Assembly (NCBI GenBank): GCA_003021745.1
Contig: PXQY01000063.1
Coordinates: 17,539-61,966, forward strand
Reading direction: 5' to 3'
DNA from: Halobacteriales archaeon QH_7_69_31
GTDB lineage: Archaea > Halobacteriota > Halobacteria > Halobacteriales > Haloarculaceae
Length of the DNA stretch: 44,428 nt
The notes under the pieces were generated by a model, which worked only from the letters and a program-made list of their open reading frames with translations, did not search any database and was not told where the DNA came from. A program made the position numbers and the translations under genes. Below, in pieces: positions 2,575-15,380 of this stretch. How positions within the stretch are numbered: the first letter of the stretch is position 1; each line of letters begins with the position of its first letter.

Positions 2575-3506
2575 GCCCGACGCTTGGTCGCGGCAGTCGA
2601 TTAACTCTTCCCGTTCGGTGGCGACGCGTCACCCTGATACCGCTCGACCCCGGAGGCGTCGATACGATGGACGCCGAGGCGGTCCGCGAGCGCGCCGAGG
2701 ACCTCCCGCGGGAGCCCGGCGTCTACCAGTTCGAGGCCGACGGCGACGTGGTCTACGTCGGCAAAGCCGTCGACGTCCGGGACCGGGTCCGCAGCTACGC
2801 CGACCCGCGGAGCGAGCGCATCCGGCGGATGGTCCGGGCCGCCGACGACGTCGACGTCGCCGTCACGGACACCGAGACCCAGGCGCTGTTGCTCGAGGCG
2901 AACCTCATCAAGCGCCACCAGCCGACGTACAACGTCCGGCTGAAGGACGACAAGTCCTACCCGCTCGTCCAGCTGACCGACCACGCGTTCCCCCGGATCC
3001 AGGTCACGCGGGATCCCGACGACGGCGCGACGGTGTTCGGGCCGTTCACGAACAAGGGCCGCGTCGACACCGTCGTGAAGGCGCTCCGGTCGGTGTACGG
3101 GCTCCGCGGCTGCTCCGACCACAAGTACGCCGACCGGGACCGGCCGTGTCTCGACCACGAGATGGGGCTGTGTACGGCGCCGTGTACCGACGAAATCGAC
3201 GCCGATAGCTACGCCGACGACGTCGAGTCGGCCGTCCGGTTCCTGGAGGGCGAGACGGGTGTCCTCGCGGGCCCGCTCGGCGAGGCGATGGACGCGGCTG
3301 CAGAGGAGCGGGCGTTCGAGCGCGCCGCGTCCCTCCGGGACCGGCTGGACGCCGTCGAGGCGTTCCACGGGGGCGGCGGCGAGGCGGTCGTCGCCGACCG
3401 GGAGGAGACCGTCGACGTCCTCGGGGTCGCGACGGAGGGCGACGCGGCGACGGTCGCGCGGCTCCACAGCGAGGACGGGAAGCTGGTCGACCGGGACCGT
3501 CATCGG

Positions 3507-3665
3507 GTGGCCAGCGAGGCGCGAGCGAAGCGAGCGCCTCGGACAGGCGAGCGGGAGGAGGGAGCGGAGCGACCGACGACACGCGAGCCGCGAGCGACCC
3601 GCGAGCCGCGATGTTGACCATCGAGAGGCCTCGGACGGAGCGGAGCCAACGCTGCCACCAACCGG
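3507..3665 (+). repeat. GAGCGAAGCGAG-type repetitive insertion inside uvrC
   Basis: This segment has no counterpart in UvrC proteins and is built of GCGAGCGAAGCGAGC-like and ACACGCGAGCCGCG units. Parts of it recur at 9055-9190: GCGAGCGGGAGGA, GACGACACGCGAGCCGCG and a TCGACCATCGAGAG-like end. It looks like a short non-autonomous haloarchaeal repeat. No obvious target-site duplication is visible. Confidence 0.7.
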
Positions 3666-4263
3666 CCATACCGACGTCCCCCGGGTCCTCGCGGCGTTCA
3701 TCCCGCAGTTTTACGCCGACCGCCCGCTGCCGGACGCCCTGTTGCTCTCCGAGCGCCACGGCGACGACGAGGTCGCCGCCTGGCTCGAGGCGGAGGGCGT
3801 CGCCGTCCGCGTCCCCGGCGCCGGTCGCGAGGCGAAGCTGGTGGAGCTGGCGCTGAAGAACGCTCGCCGGCGCGGATACGAGGAGGACGGGGCGGCGACG
3901 CTGGCCCGACGGTTCGGCCTCGACCGCCCGGACCGCATCGAGGGCTTCGACGTCAGCCACGCCCGGGGTCGCGCCGTCGTCGGGAGCAACGTGACCTTCC
4001 TCGACGGCAGCCCCGACAAGTCCGGCTACCGCCGGAAGAAGCTCGACGAGCGGAACGACGACTACGGGAACATGCGCGAACTCGTCCGGTGGCGCGCCGC
4101 GCGGGCGCTGGCGGGCCGCGACGACCGCTCGGACCCGGACCTGCTCTGTATCGACGGCGGCGAGGGCCAGCTGGACGCCGCCCGGGAGGCGCTCGAGGAG
4201 ACGGGGTGGGACGTCCCACTGGTGGCGCTGGCGAAGGAGGAGGAACTCGTCGTCACCGCCGAG

Positions 4264-4320
4264 GACGGTCCCGCGAGCGGAGCGAGCGGGACTTCCTCAC
4301 GAGCGAAGCGTAGTCACAGT
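4264..4320 (+). repeat. Second, in-frame repeat insertion in uvrC
   Basis: Between the motif LAKEEELVV and the conserved HDW segment, UvrC carries about 18 extra residues ([15 protein letters not shown] and flanks). The DNA has 7-bp arms GTCCCGC/GCGGGAC around GAGCGGAGCGA and then ACGAGCGAAGCG, the same motif style as the upstream insertion. It keeps the reading frame. Confidence 0.55.
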
Positions 4321-4703
4321 ATCCACGACTGGGCCGACGACGACCCGGCGCTGCACCTCCTGCAGCGGGTCCGCGACGAGGCTCACCGGTTCGCCGTCCA
4401 GTACCACCAGACGGTCCGGGACGACGTCTCGACGCCGCTCGACGAGGTCCCCGGCGTCGGGCCGGCGCTCCGGAAGCGGCTCCTGCGGCGGTTCGGCAGC
4501 GTCGACGGCGTCCGGGCGGCCACGCCGGCGGAGCTTGCGACCGTGGATGGCGTCGGCGACGCCACGGCCGACGCGATCGACGGCGCGCTCTGAGAGCCCG
4601 GGACGGTCGCCGCCTCCTCCTGCGTGATACCCCCGGAAAACCGGCTGGGCCGTGGTCCGTCTCGGGGGAGAGCTTCAAGTGCCGACCGGCCCAACGCCGG
4701 ACC

Positions 4704-5822
4704 ATGCCGGACGGTCTGGCGCGGGAACTCGGACGCAAGAGCGCCACCACGTCGGCCCGCAACACCGTCGTGACGGTCCTCCTACTTGCCATCGTCGGCG
4801 CCATCCTCCTCGGGATCATCGAGCTCGACCCGCTGCTCGTGGCGGCCGTCGTGCTCCTGGTCGTCGTCATCGCGGCGGTGACGAGCGCCGTCGAGATCGT
4901 CGAGGCCTACGAGCGCCGGGCGCTGACGGTGCTTGGCGACTACCGGCGGCTCCTCGACCCCGGGGTCCACCTCGTCCCGCCGTTCGTTACCCGGACCCAC
5001 CGGTTCGACCTCCGGACCCAGACGTTCGACGTGCCGCGCCAGGAGGCCATCACGCGGGACAACTCCCCGGTCACGGCCGACGCCGTCGTCTACATCAGGG
5101 TCATGGACGCAAAGCGCGCCTTCCTGGAGGTCGAAGACTACCAGCGCGCGGTCTCGAACCTCGCCCAGACGACGCTGCGGGCGGCGATCGGCGACATGGA
5201 GTTGGACGCCACCCTGTCCGACCGCTCCCGTATCAACGAGAAGATCCGGAAGGAACTGGAGGGCCCGACCGACGAGTGGGGTATCCGCGTCGAGGCGGTC
5301 GAGGTCCGGGAGGTCAACCCCTCGACGGCCGTCCAGTCGGCGATGGAGCAGCAGACCGCCGCCGAGCGCCGCCGTCGGGCGATGATCCTCGAGGCCCAGG
5401 GCGAACGCCGCAGCGCCATCGAGCGCGCCCGGGGCGACAAGCAGGCGAACATCCTGGAGTCGCAGGGCGAAAAGCAGAGCCAGATCCTCGAGGCGCAGGG
5501 GGAGGCGATATCCACGGTTCTCCGCGCGAAGTCGGCCGAGTCGATGGGGGAGCGGGCGGTGGTCGAGCGGGGGATGGACGCGCTGGCCGACATCGGGACC
5601 AGCCCATCGACCACCTACGTCCTCCCGCAGGAACTCACGTCGCTCCTCGGCCGCCACGGGCGACAGCTCACCGGGAGCGACGCGGCCGGCGGCGAGGCGA
5701 GCCTGGAGTCGCTGGCGTTCGACGCCGAGACCCGTGAGCTGCTCGGCATCGAACAGATCGAGGAACTGGCGGCGGGCGACGGCGATGCGACCGCCGCGGA
5801 CGGCGCCGAGAGCGATCAGTAA
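4704..5822 (+). CDS. SPFH/Band 7 (stomatin-like) membrane protein
   Basis: A 372-residue protein of the stomatin/prohibitin family, which form oligomers on membranes and often act with proteases. Residues ~20-62 form two adjacent hydrophobic segments. The SPFH domain follows (about 64-225) with the typical opening EAYERRALTVLG and the FDVPRQEAITRDN region. Residues ~230-285 are a charged coiled coil with three EAQGE/ESQGE units, as in flotillins. The C-terminal ~45 residues are acidic and probably disordered. It starts 110 bp after uvrC and no protease partner is adjacent, so the role is not defined here. Confidence 0.9.
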   Translation: MPDGLARELGRKSATTSARNTVVTVLLLAIVGAILLGIIELDPLLVAAVVLLVVVIAAVTSAVEIVEAYERRALTVLGDYRRLLDPGVHLVPPFVTRTHRFDLRTQTFDVPRQEAITRDNSPVTADAVVYIRVMDAKRAFLEVEDYQRAVSNLAQTTLRAAIGDMELDATLSDRSRINEKIRKELEGPTDEWGIRVEAVEVREVNPSTAVQSAMEQQTAAERRRRAMILEAQGERRSAIERARGDKQANILESQGEKQSQILEAQGEAISTVLRAKSAESMGERAVVERGMDALADIGTSPSTTYVLPQELTSLLGRHGRQLTGSDAAGGEASLESLAFDAETRELLGIEQIEELAAGDGDATAADGAESDQ

Positions 5823-6938: not shown

Positions 6939-8990
6939 TCAGAGCGCCTCGTCCGGCGAGGGCACACCCTCGTCGGGCTCGGCGAGGGCGTCGAAGGAGC
7001 CCCGGAGTTCGCGGATCCGGTCGCGGATGTCGGCGGCGAGTTCGAACTCCAGGTTGTCGGCGGCCTCCTCCATCCGGCGCTCGAGCCGCTCTATGAGTTC
7101 CTCGGCCTCCTCGACGGTGTCCACGTCGACGCCGGCGACGCCGCCCGTGTCCGTCTTCGAGCCGGGCAGGTTGGTCTCGCCGACCTCCTTGTCGATGGTG
7201 CGGGGTTCGTGGCCGTGGGCGTCGTTGAACTCCCGCTGGATGCGCCGGCGGCGCCGGGTCTCCTCGATGGCGGATTCCATGGCGTCGCTCGGCTCGTCGG
7301 CGTACAGCACGACCCGCCCGTGGACGTTGCGGGCCGCCCGGCCCATGGTCTGGACGAGCGTGGTCTCCGACCGGAGAAAGCCCTCCTGGTCGGCATCGAG
7401 GATGGCGACAAGCGTTACCTCCGGGATGTCGAGGCCCTCCCGGAGGAGGTTGATGCCGACGAGCACCTGGATCTCGCCCAGCCGGAGCGAGCGGACGAGT
7501 TCGTGCCGCTCGAGCGTGTCGGTCTCGTCGTGCATGTAGGCGACGTCGACGCCGGCGCCCTCCAGGTACTCGGTGAGGTCCTCGGCCATCCGCTTTGTCA
7601 GCGTCGTCACGAGCACCCGCTCGCCCTCGTCGGTGGCCTCGATCCGGGCGAGCAGGTCCTCGATCTGGCCTTCGGCGTCGGTGACCTCGATCTCCGGGTC
7701 GACGAGGTACGTGGGCCGGACGATCTGTTCGACGACCTGTTCGCTGTGCTCGCGCTCGTAGTCCCCGGGCGTGGCGGAGACGTACAGCGTCCGGTCGGTC
7801 TTCGCCTCGAACTCCTCGAAGGTGAGCGGGCGGTTGTCGTAGGCGGTCGGCAGCCGGAAGCCGTTGTCGACCAGCGACTCCTTGCGGGACCGGTCGCCCT
7901 CGTACTGGCCCTTGACCTGCGGGATGGACTGGTGGGACTCGTCGACCACGGTGAGAAAGTCCGCGGGGAAGTAATCCAGGAGCGTGTACGGCGGCTCGCC
8001 GGGGTCGCGGTCCGAGAGGTGGACGGAGTAGTTCTCGATGCCCGAGCAGTAGCCCGCCTCCCGGAGCATCTCCAGGTCGAAGGTGGTGCGTTCGTCGATG
8101 CGCTGGGCGGCGACGAGGTCGCCCTGTCGCTCGAAGTACGAGACCCGCTCGGCTTTCAGCTCCTCGATCTCGTCGATTGCGCGGTCGAGTCGCGCCTCCG
8201 GGATCGAGTAGTGCTCCGCCGGGTGGACGAGGGCGGCGGGCTCCTCGGAGACGGCCTCGCCGTTCAGCACGTCGACCTTCGTGAGGCGGTCGATCTCGTC
8301 GCCCCAGAACTCCACGCGGAGCGCGTGGCGGCCGTACATCGGGTAGATCTCCACGGTGTCACCACGCACCCGGAACGTGCCCTGGTGGAAGTCGACGTCG
8401 TTCCGCTCGTAGTTGAGGTCGACGAGTTCCGCCAGGACTCTCTCGCGACCCACCGCCTGGCCCGGCTCGAGCCGGAGGGCCATCCCCTCGTAGTTGCCCG
8501 GGTCGCCGAGCCCGTAGATGGCCGACACGCTGGCGACGACGATGACGTCGTCCCGGGTCAGAAGCGACCGCGTCGCTGAGTGCCGGAGCCGGTCGATCTC
8601 CTCGTTTATCGACATGTCCTTGTCGATGTAGGTGTCGGTCTGCTCGACGTAGGCCTCCGGCTGGTAGTAGTCGTAGTAGGAGACGAAGTACTCGACGGCA
8701 TTGTTCGGAAACAGGTCCCGGAACTCCTCGTACAGCTGTGCCGCGAGCGTCTTGTTGTGCGCCAGCACGAGCGTGGGCTGCTGGAGCTCCTCGAGCACCC
8801 ACGAGACCGTGTTGGTCTTCCCGGAGCCGGTCACGCCGAGCAGGGTCTGCTTGTCGGCGCCACTGTCGAATCCCTCGACCAGCGACCGGATGGCCTCGGG
8901 CTGGTCGCCGGCGGGCTCGAACGGCGCGTCGACCTCGAGCGGCCGGTCGAGGTCTGGCCGGTCCGGCTGCAGCGGTCCGGTATCGCTCAT
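6939..8990 (-). CDS. uvrB: Excinuclease ABC subunit B
   Basis: A 683-residue UvrB, the damage-verifying helicase of nucleotide excision repair that receives DNA from UvrA and recruits UvrC. Walker A GVTGSGKT is at residues 52-59. The beta-hairpin region [10 protein letters not shown], the Walker B VVDESH and motif [11 protein letters not shown] are intact. The C-terminal UVR helix that binds UvrC ([19 protein letters not shown]) is present. This gene is complete although its partner uvrC, 2.3 kb away on the other strand, is split. The ATG at 8990 gives the usual haloarchaeal N-terminus. Confidence 0.97.
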
Positions 8991-9019: not shown

Positions 9020-9195
9020 AGCCGAGCGGTCTCCCGAAGGGAGACCGCGGACTGTGCGAGCGGGAGGACCGACCGAAGGGAGGGACGACACGCGAGCCGC
9101 GCGGTTAAGAACTGGCGGATCGTGGACGAAGCGAGTGGCCACGCCGCCACCCGCCCGCTCGACCATCGAGAGACCGCGGACGGTGCATCCAACCC
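9020..9195 (+). repeat. Second copy of the uvrC-type repeat, intergenic
   Basis: The 273-bp gap between uvrB and hjc contains GCGAGCGGGAGGA, GACGACACGCGAGCCGCG (9085-9102) and CTCGACCATCGAGAG (about 9157-9171), in the same order and orientation as in the uvrC insertion. A ~55-bp middle part is present only here. A short palindrome GGTCTCCCGAAGGGAGACC is at 9028-9046. No gene is seen in the gap. Confidence 0.65.
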
Positions 9196-15107: not shown

Positions 15108-15380
15108 CGCACCCACTTTTTACTCGCTCGGGTTCCGCGCCTGCGGCGCGGAACCGCTCGCTCGCAAAAACTTGGGGAAAAACTACCGCCCCGACGCCTC
15201 ACTGCTCACGGCTCCCTGCGGTCGCCGTTCGCTCATCCGGCGGCGCTCCCTACGGTCGCGCCGCCCGCCGTTCGGCGCCGGTGAACCGCTCGGCGCGCTT
15301 CGCGCGCCTCGCGGATGCTGGCTACCGCCGCGAGCGCGCCGCAGGCGAACTGCGGGCACCGCGAGCGCCATCGTACTTAA
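15108..15380. repeat. GC-rich haloarchaeal intergenic repeat block
   Basis: About 270 bp with no gene. It has a perfect 11-bp inverted repeat GGTTCCGCGCC/GGCGCGGAACC (15131-15155) flanked by TTTTTA and CAAAAAC tracts, so it may also terminate lysC. Beyond it are many short self-complementary words (CTCCCTGCGGTCGC, CTCCCTACGGTCGC, GCGCTTCGCGCGC). This style of block is typical of dispersed haloarchaeal intergenic repeats. Confidence 0.6.

Follow-up and report, generated by a model that had tools for sequence, protein, structure and literature searches.

Palindromic repeats that code for protein are known mainly from Rickettsia and its relatives. The Rickettsia palindromic elements (RPEs) lie in frame within unrelated core genes (PMC10969869, PMC3733652). 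This report concerns a dispersed repeat of the Halobacteria that came to light through its presence in the excision repair gene uvrC. In UvrC, the 3' incision is made by the N-terminal and the 5' incision by the C-terminal domain (PMC7835731), so that a split between the domains is conceivable. Dark repair in Halobacterium depends on uvrC, but mutants lacking it survive (PMC1590041).

The stretch of DNA analysed, referred to here as the window, comprises 44,428 nucleotides from the Halobacteriales archaeon QH_7_69_31 (contig PXQY01000063.1, positions 17,539 to 61,966). A reading made from the sequence alone had proposed that uvrC is split here by a short repetitive insertion, with canonical UvrC possibly lacking. 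It is the repeat family, rather than the uvrC 'split', that is the finding worth following.

The uvrC locus

The source genome (G000) is a draft of 2.2 Mb in 135 contigs and is 73% complete. On the forward strand of the window, an open reading frame at 2667-3617 (316 aa, ended by TGA at 3615-3617) encodes the GIY-YIG nuclease (about 2718-2933), the UVR motif (about 3282-3359) and the first strands of the RNase H-like domain before it enters the repeat. This N-terminal part has 96% amino acid identity to its counterpart in the metagenome-assembled genome QS_1_69_70 (G013). The +1 frame, mechanically open over 3259-4593, carries the RNase H-like and helix-hairpin-helix domains, with homology from near 3667. 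This C-terminal part (3667-4593, forward strand) consists of UvrC_RNaseH at about 3667-3867, catalytic RNase H at about 3910-4398 and the helix-hairpin-helix at about 4435-4578. Both frames are open over 3259-3617, and a single +1 shift therefore suffices to join them. After 3617 the first ATG of the C-terminal frame is found only at 4072, while TTG at 3742 and GTG at 3841 lie inside the domain.

Alignment with relatives places a repeat array at 3507-3660 on the forward strand, in a loop of the RNase H-like domain. It includes one complete module (3514-3594, forward strand) made up of a first hairpin of a 7-bp stem subtype and a second hairpin with stacked GA/GA mismatches. Another short, repeat-like stretch lies in frame further downstream (4267-4318, forward strand); its covariance-model match at 4267-4303 is weak (E 0.055), and the stretch is absent from QS_4_69_225 (G011) and from a third relative (G016), and partly absent from G013.

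The layout described in the sequence-only reading is borne out by the ORFs and domain searches: the UvrC homology stays in one frame up to about 3512 and is followed by a GAGCGAAGCGAG-type insert and the stop at 3615-3617; the remainder of UvrC lies in the +1 frame and has no start codon. Its statement that uvrB is intact is also correct, the gene occupying 6939-8990 on the reverse strand as a full ORF with its domains, and an intact uvrA is found on another contig. As judged against UvrC of the PRK14668 type (TIGR00194), the GIY-YIG, UVR, RNase H-like and HhH domains are all present across the two frames; a single continuous reading frame is lacking in the window, owing to the +1 offset, and is found in all relatives for which both ends are available.

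A tolerated insertion in a clade of five species

A search of 40 related genomes gave a DNA match to the uvrC locus in 39, and in every fetched locus spanning both gene halves uvrC is one open frame. In G013, the closest relative at 90% DNA identity, UvrC has 650 aa with the array in frame. In-frame inserts are likewise found in three further members of this genus group: in G011 (626 aa), in G016 (627 aa), a near-finished genome of two contigs, and in G007 (593 aa); UvrC is about 576 aa long in most insert-free members of the genus. The covariance model of the repeat described below matches the uvrC arrays of all four relatives (E 5e-17, 5e-9, 6e-9 and 6e-5). In a tree built with the insert left out, the window and the four insert carriers form one clade (SH-aLRT 99). 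Since the arrays occupy the same position in a single clade, the comparison of these sequences indicates that the insertion is ancestral to the five species, with the number of modules variable and the frame kept.

The proposal that the insert splits uvrC is thus not upheld: the same insertion is in frame in G013, G011, G016 and G007, an outcome that the sequence-only reading had itself named as refuting. In this assembly the frame is indeed disrupted, but the insert is not the cause, being in frame in the relatives. Judging from these open frames, the array would be an old, tolerated loop that is normally translated. In a structural model of G013 UvrC, the insert residues 285-353 are predicted to be disordered, as a loop connecting a strand to a helix, with pLDDT below 50, although the model is of modest quality (mean 61.5), making this weak support. 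Compared with other haloarchaeal UvrC proteins, the conserved sequence is common to both, and the array is additional, in the loop between the third strand and the first helix; the broken frame is peculiar to the source-genome record. The same loop holds an unrelated low-complexity expansion (ESAGSAGSTGA...) in another member of the genus (G009), which suggests, on sequence grounds, that it may be generally permissive.

A two-hairpin repeat of the Halobacteria

The uvrC insert is an array of a dispersed structured repeat of ~80 nt. With the insert as query, blast gave 81 matches in G000, 75 in G013 and 37 in G011; other members of the genus had between 1 and 12. The match of the insert itself to the covariance model is far beyond chance (E 1e-14). 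Elsewhere in the window, a complete intergenic module lies upstream of uvrB (9024-9103, forward strand, E 2e-15) and another intergenic copy is found at 15198-15266 on the reverse strand (E 6e-9).

An alignment of 37 copies shows two covarying hairpins, in which 97.9% of cells are paired and 8 of the 14 pairs have compensatory changes. Covariation stood at 0.37; shuffles gave 0.10, and slid alignments did not exceed 0.08. The short stems are set apart by invariant GA/GA mismatches, and among copies from across the class hairpin 2 varies in length by whole steps of one GA/GA plus stem. Folded as RNA, the module is more stable than its shuffles (z -3.9); folded as DNA it is no more stable than they are (z 0). 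Stability alone is therefore no proof of the relevant strand form, and it is the covariation that carries the argument.

At a threshold of E 1e-4, the covariance model finds matches in 182 of 292 Halobacteria genomes, from 50 of 77 genera; as few candidates were scored, the counts per genome are lower bounds. When distant copies were aligned to the model, compensatory changes were again seen in 14 of 20 pairs, although an alignment made in this way is biased in favour of the model. The repeat matched none of the 4227 models of Rfam 15, lax thresholds included. An origin from a plasmid or phage was rejected: the only match was a weak one to a plasmid (Halomicrobium), and phages gave none. Among open-licence papers no description of the family was found, and a search with its core sequence returned unrelated papers only.

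Copies within and between genes

Across about 0.5 Mb of G000 and G013, 66 of 75 arrays fall between genes; the other 9 are inside predicted genes, without exception in the sense orientation. Placement was by a simple codon-usage gene finder, with which out-of-frame insertions would tend to be counted as intergenic. In four further, mostly finished genomes (G284, G002, G003 and G022), predicted genes contain 8 of 28 copies; every one of these is in the sense orientation, and they share one frame, which reads REAERSEASERASG...HASRE. The two sets together give 17 sense copies out of 17, at about 15 independent sites. The exceptions to the first frame in G000 and G013 are the copy in Hef, which uses a second frame, and the frame-broken uvrC of the window; the others are in the first frame. 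The hosts are unrelated conserved genes and include UvrC, NFACT, Hef, SLOG, p27-like, Band 7, ThiC, YcaO and Lhr-like; two of the ten host proteins scanned had no Pfam match.

The Band-7/SPFH gene of the window (4704-5822) provides one clean empty/filled pair. The site in its tail (5780-5787) is empty, and in G013 an in-frame array of about 145 nt fills the C-terminal tail of the gene (L083:10071-11330). Read by eye, the pair shows no clear target duplication. No other gene obviously split by the repeat was seen: nine same-strand gene pairs that flank arrays look, by sequence, like separate and unrelated genes. Many intergenic arrays (L113-L152) start 2-20 nt past the stop codon of a co-oriented gene or lie about 40-50 nt upstream of a divergent gene start, where they just miss the expected archaeal core promoter.

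We think it reasonably likely that these copies represent a class-wide family of two-hairpin repeats of the Halobacteria, apparently undescribed, which spreads through genomes and enters core genes in one orientation and nearly always in one frame. We hold to the same degree that its copies would give rise to loops rich in acidic residues, arginine and serine (REAERSEASERASG...), that it may be an archaeal counterpart of the Rickettsia palindromes, and that the uvrC array has been kept in frame through speciation.

Where and why the uvrC frame breaks

The difference of +1 between the window and G013 is located in the first repeat module, at 3514-3550. In the window this module has a 7-bp stem, GAGGCGC/GCGCCTC, and the spacer GGACAGGCG, while that of G013 has a 6-bp stem, GAGGCC/GGCCTC, and the spacer GGAAGGGGCG. 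The stem is thus 1 bp longer and the spacer one base shorter, with a net gain of one nucleotide. Both the 6-bp and the 7-bp subtype occur elsewhere in these genomes. The remainder of the window's array, in the C-terminal frame, encodes the same type of peptide as in the in-frame relatives. A single-base homopolymer error is too simple to account for the offset, as stem and spacer both differ.

The preferred explanation is the following. In the ancestor of the clade, an array of the dispersed hairpin repeat would have become inserted in UvrC, at a surface loop of the RNase H-like domain; its in-frame translation would normally yield a loop that is hydrophilic and disordered. In the source-genome record the first module is of a different natural subtype, giving rise to the +1 frameshift. 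The cause may lie in the assembly, a scaffolded draft in which near-identical repeat copies may have collapsed or been joined into a mosaic, or in gene conversion that very recently put one module in the place of another. We are confident in this account, that is, in a tolerated in-frame array with a +1 change of module subtype through misassembly or very recent replacement, as opposed to an evolved split enzyme. The 'split' probably has an ordinary basis, a loop insertion that is tolerated together with a +1 that is doubtful or very recent.

Several observations bear on the choice between artefact and mutation. The uvrC module is a patchwork: a copy on contig C93 is identical to it over the first 31 nt, and copies on at least three other contigs are identical to it over the last 48 nt. 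However, 48 nt is also the longest exact match to other copies, a length usually resolved by modern multi-k assemblers, which argues against misassembly. Replacement of a 6-bp stem by a perfectly paired 7-bp stem is, moreover, not a simple one-base error and also counts against an artefact. Repeat clusters lie near contig ends more often than expected, with 6 of about 42 within 400 bp where about 2 would be expected (p about 0.016, on a rough count). The contig that holds the window (C40) contains N gaps. Over about 30 kb compared between G000 and G013, no clear frame break other than that in uvrC is seen on the G000 side, once a gene cut by an N gap and one ORF with a repeat-altered end are set aside. 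Positions 1-1236 of the window, inside a gene with tandem 84-bp repeats, begin right after a run of 68 N (G000:C40 17471-17538); the assembly is scaffolded. On the G013 side, a 115-nt deletion that the window does not have shifts the frame of uvrB (C7, L083:6908-8841) and is probably an assembly fault.

It is quite possible that the +1 is a genuine frameshift allele in the population. Taken further, uvrC would be a recent pseudogene, its product truncated after the UVR motif and dark excision repair just lost or polymorphic, so that the lineage would rely on photoreactivation and polyploidy; this is one branch of the preferred explanation taken alone, and we give it something like one chance in three. 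The +1 variant belongs to a naturally occurring subtype of the module and could come by gene conversion from other copies, and uvr deletion mutants of Halobacterium are viable and rescued by photoreactivation (PMC1590041). On the other hand, uvrA and uvrB are intact and the reading frame is kept in all relatives. Both halves of uvrC are, in addition, under purifying selection relative to G013 (dN/dS of 0.21 for the N-terminal part and 0.11 for the C-terminal nuclease), neither has an excess of non-synonymous change, and the branch leading to the window shows no excess of changes.

The sequence-only reading had also allowed for a cell that lacks canonical UvrC or makes a split enzyme; the frame break behind both readings stands, but neither is the favoured account. 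That two proteins are made, or that the ribosome shifts by +1 or bypasses the hairpins to give full UvrC, is very unlikely in our view. Such recoding could draw on the overlap of the open frames over 3259-3617, joined by one +1 event, on the strong mRNA hairpins predicted at the insert and on the stop context UGA C, and programmed frameshifting is known in archaea and haloviruses (PMC8211752). Yet the break falls not between the two incision domains but inside one folded domain, the RNase H-like fold, with PF22920 (UvrC_RNaseH) matched in the C-terminal half from position 39 on, and no start codon in the C-terminal frame precedes TTG 3742 or GTG 3841, both inside that domain. The frameshift is, furthermore, present in one genome only, the relatives being in frame, and their in-frame insert lengths would be needless if the insert were bypassed or spliced out. 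The +1 is more probably explained by misassembly or very recent mutation than by an evolved split enzyme.

The reading had raised, too, the prospect of a second, intact uvrC that would make the copy in the window dispensable. The incompleteness of the genome (73%) leaves some room for one, but a search of all its contigs matched only the two uvrC pieces and the UVR motif inside uvrB, and we rate a second gene as very unlikely too. A tolerated array with a misassembled or very recently replaced first module remains the preferred account.

Implications

For uvrC, the suspicion that excision repair had been lost gives way to a loop insertion that is tolerated and a one-frame offset that is doubtful. 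If the wider reading is true, the covarying repeats in frame in ThiC, Lhr, Hef, NFACT and UvrC would represent, in archaea, the same route to new protein segments as in Rickettsia. This would be readily testable in cultured species. Such repeats may also corrupt draft genomes of haloarchaea and mimic pseudogenes.

Comparison with known repeat systems

Like REP sequences and REPINs, the haloarchaeal repeat is short, hairpin-forming, present in high copy number, mainly intergenic and clustered. Unlike them, it has a sizeable share of its copies in genes, and no GTAG/CGTC tag was seen. A gene for the Y1_Tnp (RAYT) transposase was found once in G016 and in none of the copy-rich genomes G000, G013 and G011, which are 73-88% complete; identity with the REP/RAYT system, or mobilisation by a Y1/RAYT enzyme, is not supported by these three incomplete genomes. 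Haloarchaeal MITEs share with the repeat a small size, multiple copies and empty and filled sites between sister genomes. In the 37-copy alignment, however, no terminal inverted repeats are seen around the unit, and its modules tile head to tail.

The closest likeness in way of working is to the RPEs. Both are dispersed structured repeats (the RPEs of about 100-150 nt) that lie between genes and, in frame, within core genes, where the RPEs add, and the haloarchaeal repeat would add, an extra peptide at permissive sites. The haloarchaeal repeat differs in being GC-rich and in being built of head-to-tail modules of two hairpins with tandem GA/GA mismatches. No membership of the RPEs is claimed, nor would sequence homology be expected. 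By analogy, it is in its way of working alone that the haloarchaeal repeat resembles them: it is multicopy, has a palindromic structure and lies in frame in unrelated conserved genes.
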